IMG/VR virus record: IMGVR_UViG_3300017759_000064
Span: 1 to 25,314 of that record
Source of the DNA: a virus
Reading direction: 5' to 3' (one strand)
DNA: 25,314 bases
In this document: in pieces, positions 10,038 through 25,288 of the stretch
How the letters are laid out: every line of letters starts with the position of its first letter
Numbering within the stretch: position 1 is the first letter of the stretch
The notes under the pieces: model-generated
What the model was told of the DNA's origin: nothing
What the model saw: only the letters and a program-made list of their open reading frames with translations
Databases searched by the model: none
Translations under genes and position numbers: made by a program

Positions 10038-13000
10038 ATGCCAGAAATTAAAAATGCTTTTATTAAAGGTAAAATGAATAAAGACCTTGATGAAAGATTA
10101 ATTCCTAATGGTGAATATAGAGACGCATTAAATGTTGATGTTGATTTTTCTGAAGGAAGCAGTGTAGGTGCTTTAAAAAATATATTAGGTACTACACAGC
10201 GAGATTCTATAACCTTGTCTTCAGCTAAATGTATAGGTAGCGTTAAAGATACTGAAAACAGTAAAATATATTGGTTTATAACATCTTCTGCAAAAGATTT
10301 AATAACCGAATGGAATTATGCTTCAAATACTTATGATACAATAATAGTTGATAGCGGAAGTGTATTAAATTTTAACACTGCTAATTTAATAACTGGCGCA
10401 AATGTTATTGATGGTATATTATTTTTTACAGATAATTTAAATGAACCTAGGCAAGTTGATATTGAATATTGGAGAGGGCAAACTTCTGGTTCATCGGGAA
10501 CCAGCTCAGGATTAAGCGCGGAAAGAATTACTGTTATTAGAAAATCTCCATTAGCGGCACCAACATTAGAAATGAGCAGTTCATCAAGAGGCGGTAATGG
10601 TACAGCGGGCAACACAGCTATATTTGTAGACGCTAATTTAAGTACTGAATCTACTAGTGCTGGGAATTTAGGCACACCTAGAGATTCTGGGTATCAAATT
10701 TCTTCATCTCAAGGGGGTATTAGTAAGTTTAAAGTATCTGGGGGAACAGCAACTGATCCTAATTACCAAGCTAATGATGTTATTATATTAACACACAAAT
10801 TTACAGAATCTGATGATACTGTAAAAACAATTAAAGTTAGAATAAAATTAGCTGGCAATTATTCACAACAAGGGGGTGGTAATGCTGGTGTTTTTTCAAA
10901 TGCTGAAATATTAACTATATCTGAAAAAGTTCCTCGAGAAGCGGCTTTATGGACATGCACACTAGAAGAAGATGAGCCTCTATTTAAAGAAAAGTTTCCT
11001 AGATTTGCTTATAGATATAAATACAACAATGGACAATACTCGTGTTTTTCTCCATTTACAAATGCCGCATTTTTACCAGACCCAACAGTAGGTGCTGGTA
11101 CTGGTGTGGAATATGATGCAAAGTCTGGTGCTAATTTAGCAATGGTTAACAGCCTAAGGTCACTAAAACTAAAAGATTTAAATCACAATACTCATGCTGA
11201 CGTAGAAGAAATAGACATACTCTATAAAGATTCCGTAAGCTCAAACTGTTATTTAGTTGATACTATTAAAAAGAACTCTAGTAATGCTTTCCCAAGTCCT
11301 TTGGAATTTGAAGTAAAAGATGATCAAATATTTAAAACATTACCATCAAATCAATTATTAAGATTATTTGATAGCGTTCCTAAAAAAGCTAAGTCTCAAG
11401 AAATTACAGCAAATAGATTAATATATGGTAATTATACTGAAAACTTTAACTTAAAAGATTCTAATGGCCATAATGTAGAACCTGTATTTTCAGTAGGTAT
11501 ACACAATAGATATAACCCAACTGATTCTGGATATACTGATAATAGAAAACGAAGGCACTCAATAAAATCAAAAAGAAAATACCAGTTTGGTGTAGTATAC
11601 ATGGACGAGTATGGCAGACAGACCCCTGTATTAACAAGTAAAACAGGTGTTGTAAAAGTAGGGCAAGAAAGTGCTGGGTTTTTAAGTAGATTTAGAGCGA
11701 CAATAACCTCTAACCCACCAGTATTTGCAAAAACTTATAAATATTTTATAAAAGAAATTTCCTCAACAACACATAATTTTATAGGAGATAGTTTTTATAA
11801 AGACAAAGAAGGGTTTTTATATGTTGCAGTTCCTTCAGCCGATATTAATAAAGTTGATGTTGACGACACTATAGTTCTTAAAAAGAAAAGAGGAAATGAT
11901 ATTTCAAATATTACAGAAGAATTTAAAGTATTAGATAAATACACAACTCCACCGCCATTTTTAGCTAAACCTTTGAAAGAAACATATGTGCCGGATATAT
12001 TTGTTTTTAGTAAAAACTTTGAACAAGATAAAGACCAGCACCTTTTAAAACCAGGGAGCACACCTGTTCCAGGAAGAAATAGAATAACTATTAGCGCAAT
12101 GTTTAAGTTCCAGGACACCAATATTCAAACTGGTAGTGAAATAGAATCGGACACTGCGGATGGTGTTAGTGTTCAGGCTTATGCAAAATTAAATCCAGGC
12201 GCTAAGGTAAAATTTATAACAGGTTCTGGTGAAACGGATGTATATACTATTGCAAATAAAGAACTAGACTTGGCAGATGATAATGATTTTGAATTACATT
12301 TTACTCAAGAATTTGGAGATGATGTAAAAATTCTTTATGATGATTATAATAGAGACAAACTAGTTAACACTGGTAGCGGCGCCGACATAACATATGGGGC
12401 AACACTTGTCGGGGGAGACCATACGGAAGATGGCGACACGAATACCTATGCGGGAGGTGTTAAAATGGTCGTGGTGGAGCATGTAGATGAAAGTGGTAAA
12501 GAAGAGTATCAGGGGAAATTTTTTATAAAAATAAGAAATAATACTAACTTATTAGCAGAATTAAAAGGCGAAGAAGATATAAACAATCTACAAGTATTAA
12601 GTACAATATCTTTGGATGGGGACCAAGCTGATGACGACCCAAGGCAATTTCATATGTACGGTGGCGGAAAAGCTAATACTGATTCATCTGTAACAAGATT
12701 AGGTGTTGCTGGGGCATTAAGCCCAACTGCTGGTGGTTTTGATGGTAGTCAAAATCATTTAGTATCAGGCCAATCAGGATATGGGGCAGGCCAATCTTAC
12801 AATCCTTCAGTTGGATTTATTAATAATACAGAGTTAGATAAGGGCTATCATTTTTGTATAAGGACTGATGGAAAATTTTCAAGAAGAGCATCAAAATTTG
12901 CCACATTACCTCTTGTAACAGGTTTGGAAAAAGCTCCTTCAAATAAAAATAATTATAATAGCGATACAGATGTGTACTTAAGATTTGACAGATCTAGGGG

Positions 13001-14756
13001 CCAAGTTATTGCTGGGCAAGCTGCCGATAATAATTTATATAAAATAGAAAGGGTATATAAATATCTTGAAAGAGGTGGCGGGGGTAATTTCAATGATGGT
13101 GATGCTGTTTATTTAATAAAATTAGATAAACAATTAGCGCAAAATTTAATTTTTAATGGTGCTAAAGAGTCTTCAAGCACTAATAATATAATGCAAATAT
13201 CAGTCCTTGAGTTTAAAGAAAAAGAAAATCTAGTAGGCGTACCTGAACCACCTATATTTGAAGTATTACCAAAAGATGATACGGATATTGATATATATTA
13301 TGAAACTCAAGAAGTTTTTATAATAGCATCTGACGGGACAAATAATCATGGTAATGTTAATACATTATCTTATTATAATTGTTTTGCTTTTGACAATGGT
13401 GTAGAGTCTTTGGCAATTAGAGATAACTTTAATTCTCCAGCCGTGGGTAAGGGTGTTAGGGTTTCAACCATATTTGAAGATAAACCATATATTGAAGAAA
13501 CATTAAAAAACAATTTAATATTTTCTCAAATATACAATGGTAAAAACGCTTTAAATAGACTTAATCAATTTATAATTGCAGAAGATATTACAAAAGAATT
13601 AAATCCCGATTATGGTAGTATACAATTATTACATACTAGATATAATGATATAATCGCATATTGTGAAAATAAAGTTGTAAAAATATTAACAAATAAAGAC
13701 GCATTATTTAATGCTGATGGCAGCACTAACGTAACATCTAACAAAGCGGTTTTAGGCCAAGCAAACCCTTACAATTCAAACTTTGGTATTGGTACAAACC
13801 CTGAAAGCTTTGATGAATTCTTATTTAGAAGTTATTTTGTTGACGCTAAAAGCGGTGCAGTTGTAAGGCATTCAATGGATGGAATGGAGGCAATATCTGA
13901 TTACGGTATGAAGGATTATTTTAGAGATAATTTAAACTTACAATCAGGATATATATACGGTTCTTATGATGTTGTTAAAAGCCAATATAATCTTTCTTTA
14001 CCCACAGGTGTTAATACCACGCTTTCTTTTTCAGAGTCAATTAATGGGTGGTGTAGTAGAAAATCTTATATAAATGAAGGTGGGGTTAGCATGCACAATA
14101 AGTATTTTACATTTAAAAGTGGACATATACATGAGCATCATGTTGGTGCTAGAAATACATTTTATGGGGCAGCAACTACTCCATTTGTAGAGTTTATATT
14201 TAATGAATCTCCTGCTAATATGAAAAACTTTAGGACTTTAAATTATGAAGGGGATAGTGGCTGGACTTGTTCCAGTATAGTTACAGACCAGCAAGATGGG
14301 GCTGTAGATTCATTTGTAAATAAAGAAAATAAATATTTTAACTACATAAGAGGTATAGGCGAAACTGCTTCCACAATTGATTTAAAAGCTTTAAATGTGC
14401 AAGGGATAGGGGTGTATAGCAATGTTTCAACAAATAGCAACCATGTGACATATACTTTTACTAATAATGTGCCACAAGATTTACAAGTTGGTGATACATT
14501 ATATTATGTACACCCAACTGGAAGTGTTGTTACAGCGCTTCAACTTGTAACAGCAGTTACGGCAACATCAGTAACAGCAAGATATTCATCAGCACCTCCA
14601 ACAAGCGGAGCTCCTTATTTTGTATTTTATGCAAAAAATGCAAAATGGCAAACAAGTGGGTTATTGGGTTATTATGCAACTGTTAAAATGCAAAATACAT
14701 CTACAGACTCTAAGGAGATTTATTCAGTAGGGAGCGAAGTTAGTATAAGTAGTTAA
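10038..14756 (+). CDS. Stabilization / tail muzzle protein (P22 gp10-like class)
   Basis: This 1572-residue virion protein is expected to close the connector and form the distal short tail. The N-terminus (IKGKMNKDLDERLIPNGEYR, residues about 9-29, then DALNVDVDFSEGSSVGALKN) is the typical opening of 'stabilization protein' annotations in crAss-like phages. A second hallmark, FPRFAYRYKYNNGQYSCFSP, is at about 320-338, and a third, SDYGMKDYFRDNL, at about 1287-1299 within a propeller-like C-terminal region (YCENKVVKILTNKDALFNAD is near 1210). It is more than three times the 472 residues of P22 gp10, with long Gly/Ser/Asn/Asp-rich stretches about 150-240 and 700-930 that look like inserted beta domains. 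Bases 12361-12480 (residues about 775-815) are about 53% GC, unlike the rest. The last 150 residues are beta-rich and could form a terminal knob. Confidence 0.8.
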   Translation: MPEIKNAFIKGKMNKDLDERLIPNGEYRDALNVDVDFSEGSSVGALKNILGTTQRDSITLSSAKCIGSVKDTENSKIYWFITSSAKDLITEWNYASNTYDTIIVDSGSVLNFNTANLITGANVIDGILFFTDNLNEPRQVDIEYWRGQTSGSSGTSSGLSAERITVIRKSPLAAPTLEMSSSSRGGNGTAGNTAIFVDANLSTESTSAGNLGTPRDSGYQISSSQGGISKFKVSGGTATDPNYQANDVIILTHKFTESDDTVKTIKVRIKLAGNYSQQGGGNAGVFSNAEILTISEKVPREAALWTCTLEEDEPLFKEKFPRFAYRYKYNNGQYSCFSPFTNAAFLPDPTVGAGTGVEYDAKSGANLAMVNSLRSLKLKDLNHNTHADVEEIDILYKDSVSSNCYLVDTIKKNSSNAFPSPLEFEVKDDQIFKTLPSNQLLRLFDSVPKKAKSQEITANRLIYGNYTENFNLKDSNGHNVEPVFSVGIHNRYNPTDSGYTDNRKRRHSIKSKRKYQFGVVYMDEYGRQTPVLTSKTGVVKVGQESAGFLSRFRATITSNPPVFAKTYKYFIKEISSTTHNFIGDSFYKDKEGFLYVAVPSADINKVDVDDTIVLKKKRGNDISNITEEFKVLDKYTTPPPFLAKPLKETYVPDIFVFSKNFEQDKDQHLLKPGSTPVPGRNRITISAMFKFQDTNIQTGSEIESDTADGVSVQAYAKLNPGAKVKFITGSGETDVYTIANKELDLADDNDFELHFTQEFGDDVKILYDDYNRDKLVNTGSGADITYGATLVGGDHTEDGDTNTYAGGVKMVVVEHVDESGKEEYQGKFFIKIRNNTNLLAELKGEEDINNLQVLSTISLDGDQADDDPRQFHMYGGGKANTDSSVTRLGVAGALSPTAGGFDGSQNHLVSGQSGYGAGQSYNPSVGFINNTELDKGYHFCIRTDGKFSRRASKFATLPLVTGLEKAPSNKNNYNSDTDVYLRFDRSRGQVIAGQAADNNLYKIERVYKYLERGGGGNFNDGDAVYLIKLDKQLAQNLIFNGAKESSSTNNIMQISVLEFKEKENLVGVPEPPIFEVLPKDDTDIDIYYETQEVFIIASDGTNNHGNVNTLSYYNCFAFDNGVESLAIRDNFNSPAVGKGVRVSTIFEDKPYIEETLKNNLIFSQIYNGKNALNRLNQFIIAEDITKELNPDYGSIQLLHTRYNDIIAYCENKVVKILTNKDALFNADGSTNVTSNKAVLGQANPYNSNFGIGTNPESFDEFLFRSYFVDAKSGAVVRHSMDGMEAISDYGMKDYFRDNLNLQSGYIYGSYDVVKSQYNLSLPTGVNTTLSFSESINGWCSRKSYINEGGVSMHNKYFTFKSGHIHEHHVGARNTFYGAATTPFVEFIFNESPANMKNFRTLNYEGDSGWTCSSIVTDQQDGAVDSFVNKENKYFNYIRGIGETASTIDLKALNVQGIGVYSNVSTNSNHVTYTFTNNVPQDLQVGDTLYYVHPTGSVVTALQLVTAVTATSVTARYSSAPPTSGAPYFVFYAKNAKWQTSGLLGYYATVKMQNTSTDSKEIYSVGSEVSISS

Positions 14757-14791: not shown

Positions 14792-15586
14792 ATGCCAAAC
14801 GGAAATAATAATCAATATCAAGGAATGCCTAATATTACAGGCGTTTTAGACCACTTCCAGCAGCAGACCGCTAATCCTAACGTAGGCGGTGGGGTAGGCG
14901 CTAATTTAGGGCAAAGTGTGGTGGCCGCTACAGGTATGGTGCTTGATTCCCTTAATCCATTAGCTGGCGCTGCAAAGGCTGTTGGTGGAGCTGTAAAGGC
15001 AGTTGGTAGCTTATTTGGTGGTGGTAAAAGAAGAAGAGAACAAAGAAGAGCTGAGCAAGAATTAGCTGGAAGAAAAGTTAATTATGAAAGTCTAGACACG
15101 TCTAATCCTTATAAAAATGTAACAAACCCTTATCAAAATTTAACGGTTAGTACACAGGCTGCTGATTTTGCAGCACAACAAACCGCGCAGGGCTCTGCAA
15201 ATATAATGAATAATTTAGCCGCTGCTGCAGGTGGGGGTGGTGTAGCCGCTTTAGCACAATCATTAGCTAATTCACAGGCGATGGCTGCTCAGCAAGCTTC
15301 TGCAGGTTTAGCTAAACAAGAACAAAGAAATGCAATGTTAGGAGCACAGGGTGAAAGTCAAAGACAAATGGCTGTTGCTGCTGGTGAAAGACAATCGCAA
15401 AAAATGGAATTTGAAAAACAAGGTACATTACTAGGTATGGCTCAACAAAGAAAAGCAGCTGCGGACCAAGCTAGAAAAGATGCAACTGACGCTTTAGTTA
15501 GTGGTATTACTGATATAGGTATGGGTGCGGCAATGGGTGGCTTAGGCAAGCAACCAGGTGGATTAAATCTATTCCCAGGTAAATAA
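14792..15586 (+). CDS. Small ejection / internal virion protein candidate
   Basis: This 264-residue protein is rich in Gly, Ala and Gln. Residues about 32-77 form a hydrophobic Gly/Ala segment (VVAATGMVLDSLNPLAGAAK is part of it) ending in a basic patch KRRREQRRAEQE at about 79-90. Residues about 150-225 are a Gln/Ala/Lys-rich helix, and residues about 230-250 form a second Gly-rich hydrophobic segment. This layout recalls small internal core proteins such as T7 gp14, which insert into the envelope during infection. It is the first of three consecutive genes (264, 479 and 2747 residues) after the tail genes, the order of the T7 gp14-gp15-gp16 and P22 gp7-gp20-gp16 ejection sets. No catalytic motif was seen. 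The role is inferred from composition and position. Confidence 0.6.
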   Translation: MPNGNNNQYQGMPNITGVLDHFQQQTANPNVGGGVGANLGQSVVAATGMVLDSLNPLAGAAKAVGGAVKAVGSLFGGGKRRREQRRAEQELAGRKVNYESLDTSNPYKNVTNPYQNLTVSTQAADFAAQQTAQGSANIMNNLAAAAGGGGVAALAQSLANSQAMAAQQASAGLAKQEQRNAMLGAQGESQRQMAVAAGERQSQKMEFEKQGTLLGMAQQRKAAADQARKDATDALVSGITDIGMGAAMGGLGKQPGGLNLFPGK

Positions 15587-15595
15587 ATAAAAAAC

Positions 15596-17035
15596 ATGGC
15601 AAATAAATTATTAATATTAGGAGCTGCAATGGCTCACAAAAATAAAAGCTACAATCTTAGTAGATCAATTGTTCCCGCTGTTGATGCTGGTGTAAAAACT
15701 ATTGTAGATGAACTAGAGGTTCAAAGGAAAAGAACTAATGAAGCTAGTCTCCTTACACAGCAATATCTTGACCAACTACCGGAAAATCCAGAAATAGACT
15801 TATTAGATGAAAATTTAGCGGGCATGTTTACTTCTGACCTAAATAATATAAGAAATAATATAGGTAGAATAAATATGGATAGATATAAAAACGCTTATAA
15901 ATATTCACCAGGAACAGAAGCCTATACAAACATGATGACAGAGCTAAAAACAAATGAAAAACTTTTGAAAAAAAGATTGAAAGAAGCTCAGGATATACAG
16001 ATGGCAAAAAGTAACTGGATTAATGAGCATGCTAATATTTCTGAAACATGGAAAGATTTTAACCCAGATAAATATATAGCTTTAACACAAATATTAAATA
16101 AAGAAAACCCTAATTATACAGCTAAAAGGGACTCAAAAGGTGAACTTATTTTAACCACTACCATACCTAGTGGAAAAACTGTTGATGTAAAAGTAAGTGA
16201 TTTAGATAATTGGGAAGAATATCCTCAGCCAGAAATAAATAAAATTAATGAATTTTATGAAATAGCTCAAAAAGCTGGAAAGCAAGGACTAGATATTCCA
16301 GCCGCCAGCGTTGGCCAGATGACAACTTATTTAAATAATTTTATAGGTGAAAATGAATATGCTGTTCTTTCGCTTATGTTTGATGACTTACCTATGGGTA
16401 GTAATGAAAATAAAATGGCTTTCTTTACAGAGCAGGAATTAATAAGTATGTTTGATGCAGATAAAGATGGAGCGGTGTCTCAAGAGGAAAAACAAAACTG
16501 GAGGCCACTTGATTTTAGAAATATGAAAAACAAGGTTGTAGATCGTATTATGAAAAGAATATGGGAAGAAAACAAAAAAGCCAGACCACCTAAAGCAACT
16601 TATTTTAATAACCCTGAAGATTCACAATCGGAAAACCTCCGAAAAGAAATGATGGCTAACAATACAACTAGATTAATTGCTTTATTAAATGATTCAAAAA
16701 ATTTAGGTATTAAAGAAATTATTAATAAAATTGCTGATAGTTCTTATTTAGCAGGTTCAATTGCTAAAGTAGAAGGAACATCTATTTTACCTGATGAAAA
16801 TTCAATATCGGGCATGGTTATTAAATCTTTTGATATTAAAAACGCAGTTGCACAATTTAAAAAGGATGGCAACGTTATACCATTGATTGAAAAATTAATG
16901 ACAAAATTAGGCCCAACAAAAAAAGATAGAAGTGCTGTTTACACTGATCTTTATTATTATAATCAATTAAGTGAAGATCACAAACTTAGACAAATATCAG
17001 AAAGCGGGGGATTAAATCCTAATAAATCAAACTAA
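15596..17035 (+). CDS. Mid-size ejection protein candidate with an EF-hand loop
   Basis: This 479-residue protein is largely helical and charged, with no signal peptide or clear membrane segment. A perfect EF-hand calcium loop occurs at residues 287-298 (DADKDGAVSQEE): Asp at loop positions 1, 3 and 5, Gly at 6, a hydrophobic residue at 8 and Glu at 12, with helical flanks (TEQELISMF before it and KQNWRPLDF after it). By position it is the middle member of the three-protein ejection-like set, comparable in place to T7 gp15. It lies 9 bases from both neighbours. Calcium could stabilise the protein in seawater or trigger a conformational change on entering the calcium-poor cytoplasm; that is speculation. 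Apart from the EF-hand I recognise no named family. Confidence 0.55.
   Translation: MANKLLILGAAMAHKNKSYNLSRSIVPAVDAGVKTIVDELEVQRKRTNEASLLTQQYLDQLPENPEIDLLDENLAGMFTSDLNNIRNNIGRINMDRYKNAYKYSPGTEAYTNMMTELKTNEKLLKKRLKEAQDIQMAKSNWINEHANISETWKDFNPDKYIALTQILNKENPNYTAKRDSKGELILTTTIPSGKTVDVKVSDLDNWEEYPQPEINKINEFYEIAQKAGKQGLDIPAASVGQMTTYLNNFIGENEYAVLSLMFDDLPMGSNENKMAFFTEQELISMFDADKDGAVSQEEKQNWRPLDFRNMKNKVVDRIMKRIWEENKKARPPKATYFNNPEDSQSENLRKEMMANNTTRLIALLNDSKNLGIKEIINKIADSSYLAGSIAKVEGTSILPDENSISGMVIKSFDIKNAVAQFKKDGNVIPLIEKLMTKLGPTKKDRSAVYTDLYYYNQLSEDHKLRQISESGGLNPNKSN
16454..16489 (+). other. EF-hand calcium-binding loop
   Basis: Twelve codons encode D287-A-D-K-D-G-A-V-S-Q-E-E298 in the 479-residue protein. 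All canonical ligand positions (1, 3, 5, 12), the invariant Gly at 6 and the hydrophobic residue at 8 are satisfied. I see only one loop; EF-hands usually pair, so binding may be weak or require dimerisation. Confidence 0.75.
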
Positions 17036-17044
17036 AAATAATAT

Positions 17045-20000
17045 ATGTCAAATATAAATCAACTATTGATAAAGGCATTATACAACGAATATGATCCCAA
17101 TGTAAACATTGATGATCAAGTAAGGTTTGTTAATGAAAATTATACTTCACAAGATAAATTTGTGGAAGACTTTTATAAAGAGTATGATACTGAATTAACA
17201 GATGATATTAAAAGATTTATAAGAATGAATTTTGGGGGGTTTGAAATAACAGCAGACCCCACAATTGATTTAGATGAATCTGGTTTGGAGCTAGAGCCAG
17301 AAACTGCTGATTGGGTGTCTCAGGGCAGTTTAAGTAAAAGCCAATGGAACACTATAGACAGAAAATTTGGAACTAGTGAAAATCCTAATTTTGATTATTT
17401 AACTTTACCTGTTTATAAACTTGCCCCAACAGGAGAAAATATTTTTGAAAAAGGAATGAATGTTGGTACGCATAACCAAGAAGTTGTGGCAACTGATAAA
17501 TTACAAGCATATGAAGATTTAGGACTTACTGAAGACCAAATAAAATATGAAATCCAAAAACAAAAAGATATTTTAATTGACCCTTATTCTGAAAAAGCAC
17601 AAGAATATTTTGTATCAGTTAACATTGATGGAGACGAAGAGGCTGACGCTATTAACAAATGGAAGTTAAATAACCCAGGGAGCGACTTAGAGCAAGAAGC
17701 TAAAAGACGTATATTGATGAACTTTAAAAGCATATATGCTAATAATTTAGTTGAGGGTAAATTAAATAAATGGTTTCTAGGTAAAGAAGAATTTTTCTCG
17801 TCAGGGTTTGACCAAAGCATGAAATACAAAGGGGAGGAACAAACCGGTAAAGAGCTACAATTTGATTTAATTAGCCAAAGTCTTGGTAATACGCCGTTTA
17901 CCTTTCTTCAAAAGTGGTCCGCTAAAAGAGGAGATAAAAAAAGAATGCTTTCAGAAAAGTCTATTATAAAATTAGATATTAAAGAGTTTACAGATTTTTC
18001 TGAAAAATATCAGGATGCTTTTAAAGATAATGAAAAATTAGGGCAAACAATATTAAATTACCAGAAAAAAACACAAGAAGAAGGTTTTGAATTCGATGCT
18101 GATCAGTATAGCGAAATGGAACAAAATTTAGCTGTATACAATGCAAATAGCAAGTATTTAGCTGGAATTGGTTCTAGACTACAGTTAACTGCAAAAGACA
18201 TGCGTATAGCAGATGTGGCGGGAAATATGTTAGGAAAGGATTATGATTTACTTAAAAAGAATCTTGCTTCTGTTGGTTTAGGATTTGGAGGATTTGGAAT
18301 GGGTGCACTGAGAGTATTATCTGGTACAGCAAATTTACTTCCTGGCATAGATTTTTCAGAAGCTATGGATAATCTTTCATTAGAATGGAGTAATTATTAT
18401 GCTGATGTTAAAAACTCATATGCGCCAGATATTTCATTTGAGGATAAAGGCGAAAACTTTGGGCAATGGTTTGCACAAGAAGTTTCAACACAAATTCCAG
18501 TTTTTACATTAATGATAGCTTCAGGCGGGCTTGCTGGTTTAGGTTTTAGAGGTCTTGCAGCAAGGGGTGTAATTGGTAAAAAAGTGTTAAAAGGCTCTAC
18601 AAATATTTTTGGCAAAAGCTTTACTAATATGGCATTAGTTCAAACAGCAGGGTCTGGTTCAGGTATAGGTTTTGCTTCTGGTGGAGAACAATATAATAGA
18701 ATGACTGTAGCGGAAATGCAGGATCCATTTTTAGAAACATCAGATGCCCATAAATTATTAATATCCGCTGGATATGGTGCGGCTGAGGGTGCATTTGGTA
18801 CAGCCCCTTCATATTTCTTTTTAAGAAATACTTATAAATCATTAATTAAAGCTAGTGGTAAAAAAGAATTAAGCTATAAATTGGGCATGAAACAGTTCTT
18901 TAAAGAATATGTTGCAACACCTATGCTAGCAGAATCTGTAAGTGAAGGATTAACCACAGTTACTCAAAATATTTTATTAGATAGACCCTTAATGGAAAAC
19001 GTAGACCATGCAATGTTTTCTGGGGCAATGTTTAGTCTTATTATGAATGCAGCCCCCGCTATAGGTGGAAGAATAATGTCTGATTTTTCTAATTTAGAAC
19101 AATCAACCGAATGGAAAAGAATAATTTCAGAAATTGATGCAATTACAAAAACTTTAAATAGAACAACAAAAGATAAAGATTTAATTAAACAATTAAATGA
19201 TCAATTATACGGTGCGGAATATTTTGGATTAGATGATAGCGGTAAAAAAGTTAAGAAAAGAAGTAAGGGGTTGATTCAAGAAAGAAATGAAATGATGAAT
19301 GATCTATGGAACAACATTCAACAAAATGTTGACGATAGAACTTTCAGGAGACATATGGAGGCTCAAACAAGAAAGCATGAAATCCAGGCTGAAATGCAAT
19401 TGTTAGTTGATAAAGAGGGGGAAGTTTTTATGAGCTCCCAGGGTAGAAAAAGAATGCAAAAGCTTAATAAAGAATTAGCAAGAATACAGAGTGGTATTGA
19501 TTTGTTCCAAGCACAAGGAGAATTTGGCAATGAATTTAATCTTTTAAAATCTACAGACCCTGATATTCATGAAGCATATGAAAAGAAAGCTAAAAAACAA
19601 TTACGACTTGACGGTATAAAAGACCCATCACCCTCTAAAGTTTTTGATGCGGCATCAAACCTTTATTTTGAAGAAACATTTGACGCAAACATAAAAAAGC
19701 TTGCTGCTAATAAAATATATAAACAACTCAAAAAAACAAATAATATTAAGGAATTGATGGTTTTTCAAAGCAACGAAGAAGCTATTCAATATTTAAATGA
19801 AAACCATAAAGAACAAGCTAATAAAAAGAACCGAAAAGGACTTGTGTTTAAAAATGGTAAATTTGTTAAGAAAACAGGCAGCATTGTTGATTCAATTAAA
19901 AATGGCGATTTAAGTGGATTTTACATAAATTCAACAGGGGTGCAGATGGTAATGAGAGAAAATGCTTTATTAAATCAAAAGCGAGGTACTGGGTTCCATG

Positions 20001-23000
20001 AATTGTCTCACGGTATAGTGGCGGAAATGGTCAAAAGCCTTGACCCTGAAAAAATGAATTTATTAGCAAGACAAATAATTTATCATTTAAAAGCAACAGA
20101 CCCAAAACTAGCTGCAAAAATGTTTTCAAAAGCAAGTTTAGCAAAAGCTGCTTATATGGGGAAAGACGGGGTGTTTACAAAATTACAAGCTGAAGAGGCT
20201 ATAGTGGCTTTTATGGAAGAAGTTGCAAATGGAAAAATTAAAGATAAGAGATTTATGGGATTAACAGCTGCCGCTCTTAAAAACGCTATAAAAGAAGGCG
20301 TGGATTTAGATATTAATTTTAAAGGCGCTAATGATGCTGTAGGTTTTTTATATGACATGGCTGTTAAAATACAGAAAGGTGAAATTGATTTTAAATTTAT
20401 AAAAGAAACCGAAGCCTCAATGCAATCACTGATTGGTAAAGCAGATAAGGCTGTAAAAGATTCTGATTTTGGAAAAGCTTCAGAAAATAAAACGGACTCT
20501 GAGCTTATACAAGACATTTATAACAACATTGGAGCAGAAGGCGCAAACCAAATTGCAAATAATAAATATATTAGAACGGTTATAAAAGAAATTTCTAGAA
20601 AATATTCACAAGTACCTGGATATGCAACCTATAGACAAGATTTTGAGCTAGCATTAGTTAATGACCCTATATATGGGGTGCTAGGTTCTTTGTTAACATA
20701 TGACGCAAAGAAAAATCCAGTACTAGCTTCTCATATTATAGCGAGGCTAAGACAAAGGAGTAAAACTATTGCGCAAGACATATTTCCACAGTTTTTTAGC
20801 GAAGACACAGATAATAGAACATATGAAGAAACTGAGCCCGAAATATTAGACCAAAGAGAGAGCCTTAGAATTTCACTAGGACTAACTCCGGATGTTGTAG
20901 ACAGGGTTAAGCAAGCTGTATTAAAAACGTTTGGGGGTAAATTACCTAATGTTACAAGCATGGAGTTTAGAAAAAAGCTTCAAGAATCTTTTAGAATATT
21001 CTTAAAGAAAACTATAGCAAAAGATGTATTAGGAAATCAAGACGCTTATAAAGCATTTTTAGAAAACAATTTTGAATTAATATATGGTGTATTATCGCAA
21101 GGTAATATAAATAAAAGATTTAAATCTTTTGCTGAACCTGTATTAGGAAAAGATGGTAAACAATTAAGAGAAAAAACAGCAGAGGGTAATAAGGTATTTA
21201 TTAAAAGAAAAATTACAGAGAAAGAGTTTGTAGATTATTTTTTAGGCGAAGACGTTGGTAGATCAACACAAGGGACAAGAAAAACAGCATTAGCAGAAGC
21301 TTTAGCTGAAGAGATTGCGTTTGATGCAACATTAACAGTGTTAAGAGATACTACACCTATAGATAAATCTGGAAATACTTTATTAGATAGAGTTGAACAA
21401 ATTATAGAAATTAATGGTGAACAATTTAGCGAAAACTATTTAGCTCAAGTTGCAAAAGAAATTGATAGAGCCACTGGTTTTAAATTTAGCGACTCAAGTG
21501 TTGGTATAACTGTATTAGACTTTGATGACACGGTTGCAGTTTCAAAAAGCAAGGTTATTGTTAATATGCCAGATAAAACTAAAAAAGAATTAACACCCGC
21601 TGAATTTGCAAAACAACATGATGCTTTAAAGAAAGAGGGCGCTGAGTTTGACTTTAGTCAGTTTAATAAAGTTATAGGTGGTGAAAAAGGACCTTTATTT
21701 GGTAGATTACAAAAAGCTGTAAATAAATTTGGTAATAAAAATGTATTTATATTAACAGCAAGACCTCAGGCAGCGGCGCCAGCAATCAAAGCATGGTTAA
21801 AATCACAAGGTATAGCATTATCGGAAAAGAATATAGTAGGGCTAGAAGATGGTTCACCCGAGGCAAAAGCTGATTGGATATTAAATAAAGCAAAAGAAGG
21901 GTTTAATAATTTTTATTTTGCTGATGATGTATTAGAAAATACGTATGCTGTTGAACAAGTTTTATCCCAGGTAGATGTTAAATATAGGGTTGATCAAGAT
22001 TTTGGAAAATTTAGCGAAACTAAATCTAACATGATAAAACTAATAGAATCATTTGATGGTGATTTAGGTACTTTTGTTGAATTTTTTAATGCTTTAGTAG
22101 AAGGGCAGAAAAAATATAAAGGTATAACCTCAAAATACATTAAAGACCGTAAGGGACAAGCTTTAGAATATTATGTAGCAATGGAAGTTAAAGGTATACT
22201 TGGGGATAGGGTTGAGATTGCTAATATGGATGCTTTAAAGGAATTAAAAACCGGAGACACAGGTATTGATATTAAATTTAAAATTGACGGTGAGAAAGAG
22301 TTTGGGATGGAAATTAAAAACAAATTTACCGATAGAGTTGGCTCAAAAACCGGGTATGAAGCAACAGGTGAATTATTAGGTCAAGATGCTTTAGTAAAAA
22401 TTAAAGACGCCCATGAGGTATTACTAAAAAGAGTTACAGATGTTCTTGATAAATTAAATATTGAATATTATATAGATAAAGATAATGACAATAAACTTTA
22501 TACTGAAAAATTTATTAATGGCAAAAAAATAGATATTTTATTAGCTGAAAACGGTGTTCTTTTTTCTGATCAACAATTTAATTTTGAACTTAAGGGATTA
22601 GAAACTGTTGCTAATATATATGCAGAAAAAGGCGGCAGCTATATAAGTTTTGATGATGTGGGTATATTTTCTTTAAAGTCTAACCCAATGATGATGGGGT
22701 CGAAAAAAACTTGGTATGGTGTTAGGACTGGAGGAGTAAGAAGCATAATAGGTTTAACCGATAAAAAGGGGAATATGTTCAATACAGGGGTACAACCAAC
22801 ACTTAAAACAGGGAAAGGCGGCAGCACGTTTTACAATAAGAAAAGTGGTAAAAATTTAATAGCTGATGATGTAAGAACATTTTTTGCAAGAAGTTTCTTT
22901 TATATACAAAAGTCAGATGGCACAAGAGCAAAGGCTTCGGATATAGACAACAGTATTGATGTAAATGAAGCATTTGGTAAAATGAGCGAAACCAATGTGA

Positions 23001-25288
23001 ATTTAGATAATGAATTAAATAATATAATTGAAAAAAGTACTAAAGCTCAAGGTAAAACTGTTAAAAATATTGTTCGCTATTCTGATACCAAGGCTAGATT
23101 AATGGGGAAAGATAAAGGCGGTGGAGGAATTATTTTTAAATTTACCGCAGATGATTTAAAAGGTTTTACTTATGAAATAATGAAGGGCATAAGAGGTAAA
23201 GAAGGGGATGCTGCAATCGCATTTTTTGACGAGCATTTGCATAGACCTTATGACGCTGCTTATCATGGTATGGCTGGAGAGCAAATGTATTTAATGGAAG
23301 GGCTTAAAGCTTTAAAGAAAAGAATGCCTGGTGTTCCAGCAAGAATGAATGATAAAATAGATGGTAGCGTATATACAAATGATATGGCGGTAAGAGTATA
23401 TCTATGGAAAAAACAAGGTATGGATATACCTGGTATTCCTAAAAAAGACGTTCAGGATTTAGTTAATCATGTTAAAAATGATTTAAGCCTACAAACATTT
23501 GCAGATGAATTACACGCACTACAAAAATCTGATGGTTACCCTGCTCCTACTGAATATTGGGAGGCAACAAATATAGAAATTGATTTATATGAAGCTTTAA
23601 ATTCAGTTAAAAGAAAAAAGCATCTTAAGCAATGGGAAGAAAATGTAGGTATTATATTCTCTCCAAAAAATTTAAGAAAAATAGAAGCTGTTTATGGTAG
23701 TGAATTTGTTAAAAATTTAAAAGACATGCTTGAAAGAATGCGTACTGGTAAAAATAGAAAAGTTTCTAATACACCAGGGGGCAAATTAGTACAAGATTAT
23801 CAAAACTGGATAAATGGTGCTACTGGTGTTATAATGTTCTATAATATGCGTTCAGCTATACTTCAAACAATATCTACTATAAACTATATGAATTGGCATG
23901 ATAATAACCCTTATAAAGCTGGAAAAGCATTTGCAAATCAACAACAATACTGGACAGATTGGTTAATGATTTTTAATTCCAATTATCTTCAAGTAAGAAG
24001 AGCCGGATTAAAATTAAATGTAACAGAAAGCGAGCTATCTGATATGGCTTCACGAAAAGGGATTAGAGGGGTTATAGGTTTATTATTAAAAAATGGATTT
24101 ACACCAACAAGAATAGCTGATAGTTTTGCAATATCAACAGGTGGAGCTACAATGTATCGTAACAGAGTAAATACATATTTAAAAAAGGGTATGAAACAAA
24201 AAGCCGCTGAGAACAAAGCTTTTGAAGATTTTATGAAAATCACAGAAGAATCTCAGCAGTCAAGTAGACCAGATAAAATATCTGCACAACAAGCAAGTGA
24301 TGCTGGGCGAATTATGCTTGCTTTTGCCAATACACCAATGCAGTATAACAGGTTAATAAAGCGAGCCGCACAAGATTTATATTATGGTAGAGGTGATTGG
24401 AAAACAAATATAAGTAAAATAGGGTATTATAGTACTGTACAAAACTTTATATTTAATGCTTTACAAAAAGGGCTATATGCTTTAGGATTTGGATTAGACG
24501 AGGATGACCCTGAAAAACAAGAAGCAAGAACTACTAAAGTTATGGAAGGAATGGCAGATAGTTTATTAAGTGGTTTAGGTACTCAAGGAAAATGGGCTTT
24601 AGTAGTTAAAGGGTTGATGCAAGATATAGCTAAAGAACGAATGGGTTATCATGAGACATATTGGGAAAACTTTTTACAATTATCTCCACCAATAGGAAGT
24701 AAAATCAAAAAATGGATTAGTTCTGAATATTTATTTGATAAGTATGAAGATAGTAAGCAGGCACGAGAGGTTTCTTTACGTAACCCATATCTTATGGCTT
24801 ATGCACAATATGCCTCAACTATATTTAATATACCTTTAGATAGAGCTTTAAGAAAAATTCACAACTTAGAATCTGTTATGGCAGATGATACAGAAGATTG
24901 GCAAAAGGCCGCATTATTTATGGGATGGAATGAGTGGGATGTTGGTATTGACGGGTATACAAGAACTAAATATGGTAAAACACCAGTCAAAACCGATGAG
25001 TATGTAAAAGAAAGAACTGAAACAAAAGAAGAGCATCAAAGAAAAATTGATTCTATTGTAGATTTAGGGTGGACAAGAATACCTTTATCAGGACCAAAAT
25101 CATTTGAACCAGAAGGTAAGCTTGGGGTAGACTATGTAAGATTGAAAAGAAAAATTGATGGGAAATGGCAATATTTTGTACCAAAAAAAGTGTTTGACAA
25201 AAAGTTTCCACCTCCAGCGCCTCCAACAGCAGAGGATTATATTAAAAAAGCTAGAGAGAGATTGAAAAAAAGAGGACTAACATTATAA
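17045..25288 (+). CDS. Giant multi-domain ejected ('polyvalent') virion protein
   Basis: This is a single intact frame of 2747 residues. In order, it contains an acidic N-terminal region (1-400); a Gly-rich hydrophobic region with several candidate membrane-inserting segments (about 402-434, 478-515 and 653-679); a coiled-coil-like stretch (about 776-830); a zincin motif H985-E-L-S-H989 with Glu residues at 1050-1051 and 1058-1059 as third-ligand candidates; a HAD phosphatase domain (D1492-F-D1494-D-T, T1571, K1608, D1627-D1628); a PD-(D/E)XK-like nuclease signature (E1708, D1742, E1756-I-K1758); and a long helical C-terminal module (about 2080-2690) whose wording (for example RIMLAFANTPMQYNRLIKRA) recurs in giant marine-phage virion proteins. 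It occupies the gp16-like place as last of the ejection set. Such multi-enzyme proteins are thought to be injected with the DNA to open the envelope and act on host targets. I saw no RNA polymerase or lytic transglycosylase signature. Enzyme activities are inferred from motifs only. Confidence 0.85.
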   Translation: MSNINQLLIKALYNEYDPNVNIDDQVRFVNENYTSQDKFVEDFYKEYDTELTDDIKRFIRMNFGGFEITADPTIDLDESGLELEPETADWVSQGSLSKSQWNTIDRKFGTSENPNFDYLTLPVYKLAPTGENIFEKGMNVGTHNQEVVATDKLQAYEDLGLTEDQIKYEIQKQKDILIDPYSEKAQEYFVSVNIDGDEEADAINKWKLNNPGSDLEQEAKRRILMNFKSIYANNLVEGKLNKWFLGKEEFFSSGFDQSMKYKGEEQTGKELQFDLISQSLGNTPFTFLQKWSAKRGDKKRMLSEKSIIKLDIKEFTDFSEKYQDAFKDNEKLGQTILNYQKKTQEEGFEFDADQYSEMEQNLAVYNANSKYLAGIGSRLQLTAKDMRIADVAGNMLGKDYDLLKKNLASVGLGFGGFGMGALRVLSGTANLLPGIDFSEAMDNLSLEWSNYYADVKNSYAPDISFEDKGENFGQWFAQEVSTQIPVFTLMIASGGLAGLGFRGLAARGVIGKKVLKGSTNIFGKSFTNMALVQTAGSGSGIGFASGGEQYNRMTVAEMQDPFLETSDAHKLLISAGYGAAEGAFGTAPSYFFLRNTYKSLIKASGKKELSYKLGMKQFFKEYVATPMLAESVSEGLTTVTQNILLDRPLMENVDHAMFSGAMFSLIMNAAPAIGGRIMSDFSNLEQSTEWKRIISEIDAITKTLNRTTKDKDLIKQLNDQLYGAEYFGLDDSGKKVKKRSKGLIQERNEMMNDLWNNIQQNVDDRTFRRHMEAQTRKHEIQAEMQLLVDKEGEVFMSSQGRKRMQKLNKELARIQSGIDLFQAQGEFGNEFNLLKSTDPDIHEAYEKKAKKQLRLDGIKDPSPSKVFDAASNLYFEETFDANIKKLAANKIYKQLKKTNNIKELMVFQSNEEAIQYLNENHKEQANKKNRKGLVFKNGKFVKKTGSIVDSIKNGDLSGFYINSTGVQMVMRENALLNQKRGTGFHELSHGIVAEMVKSLDPEKMNLLARQIIYHLKATDPKLAAKMFSKASLAKAAYMGKDGVFTKLQAEEAIVAFMEEVANGKIKDKRFMGLTAAALKNAIKEGVDLDINFKGANDAVGFLYDMAVKIQKGEIDFKFIKETEASMQSLIGKADKAVKDSDFGKASENKTDSELIQDIYNNIGAEGANQIANNKYIRTVIKEISRKYSQVPGYATYRQDFELALVNDPIYGVLGSLLTYDAKKNPVLASHIIARLRQRSKTIAQDIFPQFFSEDTDNRTYEETEPEILDQRESLRISLGLTPDVVDRVKQAVLKTFGGKLPNVTSMEFRKKLQESFRIFLKKTIAKDVLGNQDAYKAFLENNFELIYGVLSQGNINKRFKSFAEPVLGKDGKQLREKTAEGNKVFIKRKITEKEFVDYFLGEDVGRSTQGTRKTALAEALAEEIAFDATLTVLRDTTPIDKSGNTLLDRVEQIIEINGEQFSENYLAQVAKEIDRATGFKFSDSSVGITVLDFDDTVAVSKSKVIVNMPDKTKKELTPAEFAKQHDALKKEGAEFDFSQFNKVIGGEKGPLFGRLQKAVNKFGNKNVFILTARPQAAAPAIKAWLKSQGIALSEKNIVGLEDGSPEAKADWILNKAKEGFNNFYFADDVLENTYAVEQVLSQVDVKYRVDQDFGKFSETKSNMIKLIESFDGDLGTFVEFFNALVEGQKKYKGITSKYIKDRKGQALEYYVAMEVKGILGDRVEIANMDALKELKTGDTGIDIKFKIDGEKEFGMEIKNKFTDRVGSKTGYEATGELLGQDALVKIKDAHEVLLKRVTDVLDKLNIEYYIDKDNDNKLYTEKFINGKKIDILLAENGVLFSDQQFNFELKGLETVANIYAEKGGSYISFDDVGIFSLKSNPMMMGSKKTWYGVRTGGVRSIIGLTDKKGNMFNTGVQPTLKTGKGGSTFYNKKSGKNLIADDVRTFFARSFFYIQKSDGTRAKASDIDNSIDVNEAFGKMSETNVNLDNELNNIIEKSTKAQGKTVKNIVRYSDTKARLMGKDKGGGGIIFKFTADDLKGFTYEIMKGIRGKEGDAAIAFFDEHLHRPYDAAYHGMAGEQMYLMEGLKALKKRMPGVPARMNDKIDGSVYTNDMAVRVYLWKKQGMDIPGIPKKDVQDLVNHVKNDLSLQTFADELHALQKSDGYPAPTEYWEATNIEIDLYEALNSVKRKKHLKQWEENVGIIFSPKNLRKIEAVYGSEFVKNLKDMLERMRTGKNRKVSNTPGGKLVQDYQNWINGATGVIMFYNMRSAILQTISTINYMNWHDNNPYKAGKAFANQQQYWTDWLMIFNSNYLQVRRAGLKLNVTESELSDMASRKGIRGVIGLLLKNGFTPTRIADSFAISTGGATMYRNRVNTYLKKGMKQKAAENKAFEDFMKITEESQQSSRPDKISAQQASDAGRIMLAFANTPMQYNRLIKRAAQDLYYGRGDWKTNISKIGYYSTVQNFIFNALQKGLYALGFGLDEDDPEKQEARTTKVMEGMADSLLSGLGTQGKWALVVKGLMQDIAKERMGYHETYWENFLQLSPPIGSKIKKWISSEYLFDKYEDSKQAREVSLRNPYLMAYAQYASTIFNIPLDRALRKIHNLESVMADDTEDWQKAALFMGWNEWDVGIDGYTRTKYGKTPVKTDEYVKERTETKEEHQRKIDSIVDLGWTRIPLSGPKSFEPEGKLGVDYVRLKRKIDGKWQYFVPKKVFDKKFPPPAPPTAEDYIKKARERLKKRGLTL
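18249..19081 (+). other. Gly-rich hydrophobic, putative membrane-penetrating region of the giant protein
   Basis: Residues about 402-679 contain three Gly/Ala-rich apolar stretches (near LGFGGFGMGALRVL, VFTLMIASGGLAGLGF and AMFSGAMFSLIMNAAPAIGG), with further Gly/Ala/Glu segments such as SAGYGAAEGAFG between them. Similar glycine-zipper patterns occur in ejected proteins that form trans-envelope channels. None is a textbook secretion signal. Confidence 0.5.
19940..20230 (+). other. Zincin metallopeptidase motif in the giant protein
   Basis: The motif HELSH (H985, E986, H989; codons 19997-20011) is preceded by GTGF and followed by a helix. About 60-70 residues later EEAIVAFMEE (1050-1059) supplies plausible glutamate third ligands, the gluzincin-like pattern. 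Zincin-like peptidases are a recurring part of phage polyvalent proteins. The activity could be self-processing or cleavage of a host protein. Confidence 0.65.
21497..22002 (+). other. HAD-superfamily phosphatase domain in the giant protein
   Basis: All four HAD motifs are present in order and spacing: motif I LDFDDTVAV (nucleophile D1492, acid/base D1494, T1496), motif II ILTAR (T1571), motif III Lys K1608 in PEAKADW, and motif IV FADD (D1627, D1628). The insert between motifs I and II (about 70 residues) is a small cap or loop. The substrate is unknown; the placement beside a nuclease-like domain hints at nucleic-acid ends. Confidence 0.8.
22120..22335 (+). other. PD-(D/E)XK-type nuclease signature in the giant protein
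   Basis: The pattern is a helix with GQALEYYVAMEVKG (E1708), then GDTGIDIKF (D1738 or D1742), then a beta strand with MEIKNKF (E1756 and K1758). The order Glu helix, Asp, Glu-x-Lys with 13 residues between D1742 and E1756 is the restriction-endonuclease-like core. The domain probably continues to about residue 1860. Confidence 0.6.

Follow-up and report, generated by a model that had tools for sequence, protein, structure and literature searches.

A single open frame in the window (the whole 25,314-base IMG/VR record analyzed here) encodes P0001, a giant protein of 2747 amino acids in which a zincin-like metallopeptidase is followed by a row of enzyme domains bounded by copies of a short, lineage-specific peptide. 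We propose, with a probability of about one half, that P0001 is a virion polyvalent polyprotein which is cut at these junction peptides, most likely by its own zincin. The recurrence of the junction peptides is a new observation, absent from the initial annotation.

The frame runs on the plus strand from an ATG at 17045 to 25288, and its full-length orthologues, encoded at loci L002, L003, L013 and L015, are each 56-58% identical to P0001, those of L002 and L003 being 96% identical to each other. Residues 380-880 (18182-19684) constitute a Gly-rich hydrophobic N-terminal module that is kept in the orthologues and has a weak link to Elemovirus gp18. Residues 1984-2747 (22994-25285) constitute a C-terminal module, with F.NTPMQY among its motifs, that is conserved in at least 113 viral ORFs. 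Five domains are placed between them: the zincin-like domain (residues 895-1140, 19727-20464), delimited by its invariant residues, the AF2 core and a profile; domain X (residues 1150-1478, 20492-21478), predicted to be helical by AF2, defined also by profile and assigned to no fold; a HAD-superfamily phosphatase domain (residues 1486-1652, 21500-22000); a PD-(D/E)XK-like nuclease domain (residues 1660-1838, 22022-22558), and domain Y (residues 1844-1978, 22574-22978), recognized by profile. The initial annotation had described the uninterrupted frame, its three motif sets and the two end modules, one hydrophobic and rich in Gly, the other conserved-looking; the frame was confirmed, every motif was found at its assigned residues, and both end modules proved to be real. 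As a whole, P0001 gave no usable match to Pfam, NCBIfam or PHROGs.

The zinc-binding motif of the metallopeptidase, HELSH, occupies residues 985-989 (19997-20011) and has E1051 downstream. The HAD set comprises DFDDT at 1492-1496 (D1492 and D1494), ILTAR with T1571, K1608, and D1627 and D1628 within FADD. E1708, D1742 and E1756-x-K1758 make up the nuclease-like set. In the four orthologues HE[LF][SA]H, E1051, all the HAD catalytic residues and E1708, E1756 and K1758 are invariant. When 40 sequences were aligned, HExxH and E1051 were present in all rows covering them, and D1492, D1494, T1571, K1608, D1627 and D1628 in all HAD-bearing rows. The E, E and K of the nuclease-like set are invariant in eight sequences from five lineages, in each of which an Asp lies shortly upstream of ExK (about 13-17 residues where counted). 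This conservation is far above chance. The zincin motif and the complete HAD set (1492-1628) of the initial annotation are hence both present and conserved, and the loss of catalytic residues in close homologues, named there as the outcome that would speak against it, was looked for and did not occur. A degenerate zincin, HAD or nuclease-like domain, non-catalytic and purely structural, would fit the virion-structural role of the flanking modules and the weak scores of the zincin and the nuclease in databases; nevertheless it is very improbable, since none of the aligned relatives departs from the catalytic residues, though the flanking sequence diverges to about 30%.

The AF2 model built with the 40 aligned sequences has a mean pLDDT of 74, and an earlier one built with five sequences had 48.5. 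In the HAD domain the values are about 79-96, mostly above 88, and the best Foldseek matches to it are the HAD effectors Ceg4 and Lem4 (6aok and 6cgk, probabilities 1.00 and 0.98), with E-values of only 0.03 and 0.17 for a query that was the whole multi-domain model; viral matches include phosphatase domains of PNKP. The domain also matched Pfam DUF2608 with E=1.3e-4 and 22.0 bits (cut-off 22.6), and three of 18 family members matched the PHROG polynucleotide kinase family. With motifs I-IV present (DxD, T, K, DD), the model and the structure search support a predicted HAD fold of the PNKP/Lem4-like kind. The zincin-like region was modelled as strands, the HExxH helix and a next helix bearing E1051, with a core pLDDT mostly of 65-91, and the nuclease-like region in the alpha-beta-beta-alpha-beta order (helix-strand-strand-helix-strand), with pLDDT mostly of 52-83. 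Foldseek on the whole multi-domain model listed neither a zincin nor a nuclease, profiles of named nuclease families did not match the nuclease-like domain, and PDB sequence profiles gave chance-level matches only. Of the three folds originally predicted, the HAD is backed by model and Foldseek, and the putative zincin and nuclease, unmatched by Foldseek, are supported by their invariant residues and predicted topology.

Conservation is uneven along the protein: the identity to P0002 amounts to 64-98% over X and HAD (about residues 1160-1655), to about 30% in the nuclease-like stretch and to about 70% in the C-terminal module. The L015 protein is closer to the window protein in its C-terminal half and to P0002 in its N-terminal half, a mosaic similarity from which we conclude that cassettes have been exchanged. 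The same protein (P0009) has an insert of about 130 residues inside its HAD, between motifs I and II (about residues 1471-1600); by eye it looked ART-like (TDIREAQEYAR...GFGGFKY), an assignment that was rejected as it found no Pfam support.

Beyond the orthologues, a DNA pattern for LDFDDTVA revealed in IMG/VR about 46 further giant ORFs with the same HAD, and nearly all of those reaching far enough upstream have HExxH about 930-1400 residues before it. A profile made from the five orthologous proteins detected both the HAD and the C-terminal module, lying next to each other, in almost all of these further HAD giants, so that the nuclease-like cassette is an addition in the window lineage. The pattern for the C-terminal module was found in at least 120 viral contigs, with HExxH upstream in 28 of the 31 complete ORFs bearing the module among the matches listed, and profile searches located the zincin in 55 further loci and domain X in 34. 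The nuclease-like domain, accompanied by domain Y, occurs without HAD in four other lineages, L155, L134, L109 and L184, where its E, E and K are kept. The order zincin, HAD, nuclease had been thought unusual; zincin followed by HAD proved to be standard in a large viral family, and the window lineage is set apart only by having a nuclease-like cassette after the HAD and ahead of the C-terminal module. The HAD giants outside that lineage (L023-L190) contain about 400-550 further residues, made up of other domains, between X and HAD, and some BFVD relatives are named cytidyltransferase-like or UDP-GlcNAc kinase.

No significant match was obtained by tblastn against isolated phages with P0001, its HAD, its domain X or the HAD plus C-terminal module of L026, and a search of genome contigs returned no relative. 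Pfam polyvalent, LPD and MPTase models matched none of the 18 family members at E<=0.01, and the polyvalent-associated models MPTase, LPD and ART, which are the usual sign of such proteins and not a strict requirement, had no Pfam match in P0001. The family thus appears, from these searches, to be covered by no isolated phage and no current Pfam model. The polyvalent reading of P0001 itself is supported by the presence of the zincin, HAD and PD-(D/E)XK-like sets in one frame with their residues conserved.

A KFSDS-like peptide recurs in the window lineage near residues 1145, 1481, 1656, 1840 and 1980. Junction 1 (residues 1143-1149, 20471-20491) is degenerate in P0001 (KASEN) and was located by alignment with the four orthologues, which have KYSDS, QFSDS or KFSDS, and by a minimum of model pLDDT. 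Junctions 2 (KFSDSS, residues 1480-1485, 21482-21499) and 3 (KFSET, residues 1655-1659, 22007-22021) are defined by motif, alignment and model, and junction 4 (LFSDQ, residues 1839-1843, 22559-22573) by motif and alignment. Junction 5 (KMSET, residues 1979-1983, 22979-22993), likewise defined by motif and alignment, corresponds in other giants to J2, which directly precedes the C-terminal module. Confidence in the 40-sequence model dips at residues 1122-1146, 1476-1484 and 1654-1659, the positions of junction motifs; in the first, five-sequence model no confidence minimum coincides with junction 4. The pattern [FYM]S[DE][ST] occurs 4-5 times per protein of the window lineage, as against 0.2-0.3 expected in shuffles, and nearly all copies lie downstream of the zincin and before the C-terminal module begins. 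RYSDT at residues 2011-2015, within that module, is not retained as a candidate cut site, since its motif is general to the module and FS/YS.AKA stands at the equivalent position in other giants. Junction versions of their own occur in the other giants, such as KFSKGL in L076, NTSEKM in L040 and SSLNLS in L046.

The peptides before and after HAD are more alike within a protein than between proteins (19.12 vs 15.95 in 25 clusters, a value reached in none of 20000 permutations; p=0.0008 in 14 strict clusters), in windows picked after the sequences had been inspected; six control segments gave null results (p 0.09-0.82). A pre-set J1 x J2 test with the same fixed windows on an independent set gave a weak result (p=0.025; strict clusters, p=0.12). 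In 42 clusters, which mix discovery and new loci, the J2 core of each protein recurs between 100 residues past the zincin and J2 (z=10, 0/20000 permutations), and no excess was seen in the region before the zincin (p=0.36) or within the C-terminal module (p=0.38). The copies peak at +100-200, +500-650 and +950-1100 from HExxH, with 15, 20 and 15 sites in the three zones and 3.9, 3.7 and 2.7 with foreign cores. When 19 complete giants were scored singly, roughly half were without clear excess of their own motif. Shuffles and foreign-motif controls rule out chance or low complexity as the source of the motifs. The junction copies differ in codons, including TCN versus AGY serines, and therefore selection seems to act on the peptide.

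P0001 could instead be an ordinary polyvalent protein that is never cut, its peptides being flexible linkers that mark cassette exchange and resemble one another through recombination or a shared linker style. Cassettes do change at the junctions, as illustrated by the L015 mosaic between window and P0002 types and by the four loci where the nuclease-like and Y cassette is found without HAD; besides, another zincin-bearing protein, the virion RNA polymerase of N4, is packaged in one piece (PMC5512222). We nonetheless consider this explanation unlikely: the codon differences among copies within one protein argue against recent DNA exchange, and the peptides of one protein vary together and are unlike those of other lineages, with no excess of them on the N-terminal side of the zincin. 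That same restriction to the region downstream of the in-chain zincin disfavours recognition of the peptides by another protein, be it a prohead protease of the phage or a scaffold or chaperone that acts as docking factor and loads the giant into the head. In giant phages several of the internal head proteins are indeed cut by prohead proteases at a motif that they have in common (PMC10052503), and GroEL/GroES genes are present in relatives of the window phage; but Pfam and PHROGs identified no prohead protease among the genes of the window, and we hold this possibility to be quite improbable.

Upstream of the giant ORF lie, in this order, the genes for the terminase and the portal, those for other structural proteins and those for small proteins of the ejection type. 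The TerL shares 62% identity with that of MW202828, 44% with those of Elemovirus phages of Flavobacterium and 32-38% with those of Cellulophaga and Tenacibaculum podoviruses, and the source phage belongs to a group related to podoviruses infecting Flavobacteria. The same gene order ends in a giant protein in MW202828 (3859 aa), Elemovirus (3694 aa) and phi38:1 (1691 aa), annotated as structural in the latter two, and Gundel_1 has a structural protein of 2482 aa directly upstream of its terminase. By this synteny with annotated structural proteins, P0001 is probably virion-borne. It may, as the initial annotation suggested, enter the host together with the DNA and act there before phage genes are switched on. 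Homologues of the window genes at 14792-15586 and 10038-14756 were found in 24 and 17 loci with distant giants, so the block of ejection-type genes is widely shared. The 479-aa protein encoded just upstream of the giant gene (15596-17035) contains a weak EF-hand-like stretch at residues 280-298, below the Pfam cut-off.

Taking into account that the junction peptides: (i) fall in predicted linkers; (ii) occur only downstream of the zincin; (iii) are alike within a protein, and (iv) differ between lineages, they behave like a set of processing sites, and a repeated candidate recognition peptide at domain boundaries is what a self-processing polyprotein would be expected to have. In the model that we propose, the N- and C-terminal modules would hold P0001 in the particle. 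Between them, the zincin-like metallopeptidase would be followed by exchangeable cassettes, namely domain X, the PNKP-like HAD phosphatase and the PD-(D/E)XK-like nuclease together with domain Y, each cassette being linked to the next by a copy of a single short peptide that is specific to the lineage and [KQ]FSDS-like in that of the window. The zincin would recognize this peptide and cut the chain there, during assembly or after entry, and the freed enzymes could then, at an early stage of infection, modify the ends of nucleic acids or attack the DNA of the host or of rivals. Cutting at the junction peptides we judge about an even chance, and cutting by the in-chain zincin somewhat less probable than cutting itself. 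More generally, and at slightly under even odds, a large and largely uncultured group of tailed phages may package true polyproteins, in which, as in the polyproteins of RNA viruses, an in-chain zincin would co-evolve with cut sites specific to each lineage, the cassettes being exchangeable yet released.

Zincin processing of polyvalent proteins was proposed from P1 DdrB by Iyer et al. 2017 (PMC5512222), and has so far been suggested without named cut sites. The present family gives concrete candidate sites that recur at domain boundaries and co-vary within each protein, in widespread giant viral proteins lying outside the isolated-phage collection and the domain libraries searched. If the model is true, it would explain the delivery of several separate enzymes to the host cell by a single virion protein, and the junction peptides would provide a simple means of locating domain borders, and new effectors, in the giant proteins of phages.

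The polyvalent proteins of phages and conjugative elements (PMC5512222) resemble P0001 in being very large, in combining unrelated enzymatic activities, in their zincin hub and in their proposed delivery with DNA; in contrast to P0001, no HAD phosphatase is mentioned for them in the main text of that article, where recurrent junction peptides are not described either. P1 DdrB and the N4 virion RNA polymerase share the in-chain zincin, the former being processed before packaging and the latter packaged uncut, and in the account given there a multi-site junction peptide like that of the P0001 family is reported for neither. The HAD domain has the fold and catalytic residues of polynucleotide kinase 3'-phosphatase and of Lem4/Ceg4-type phosphatases, although P0001 has no recognized kinase partner of the PNKP kind. 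With the PD-(D/E)XK superfamily the nuclease-like domain shares E...D...ExK and the predicted alpha-beta-beta-alpha-beta order, and it matches no named-family profile. Elemovirus gp18, the MW202828 protein, Cellulophaga phi38:1 gp101 and Gundel_1 gp074 are likewise giant, the first three occupying the corresponding position among their genes and gp074 lying directly before the terminase. Their middle domains differ, and a window-type HAD or nuclease-like cassette was not found in any of them; gp18 has a DUF3293 and gp074 a weak GNAT-like stretch. A zincin motif is nevertheless present in three of the four, HExxH being found in the giants of MW202828 (L006 741-12320, two), Elemovirus (L007 6852-17936) and Gundel_1 (L009 12181-19629) and not in phi38:1 gp101, and the C-terminal module of P0001 matches, distantly, the structural protein gp074 of Gundel_1 (E=8.8e-8).
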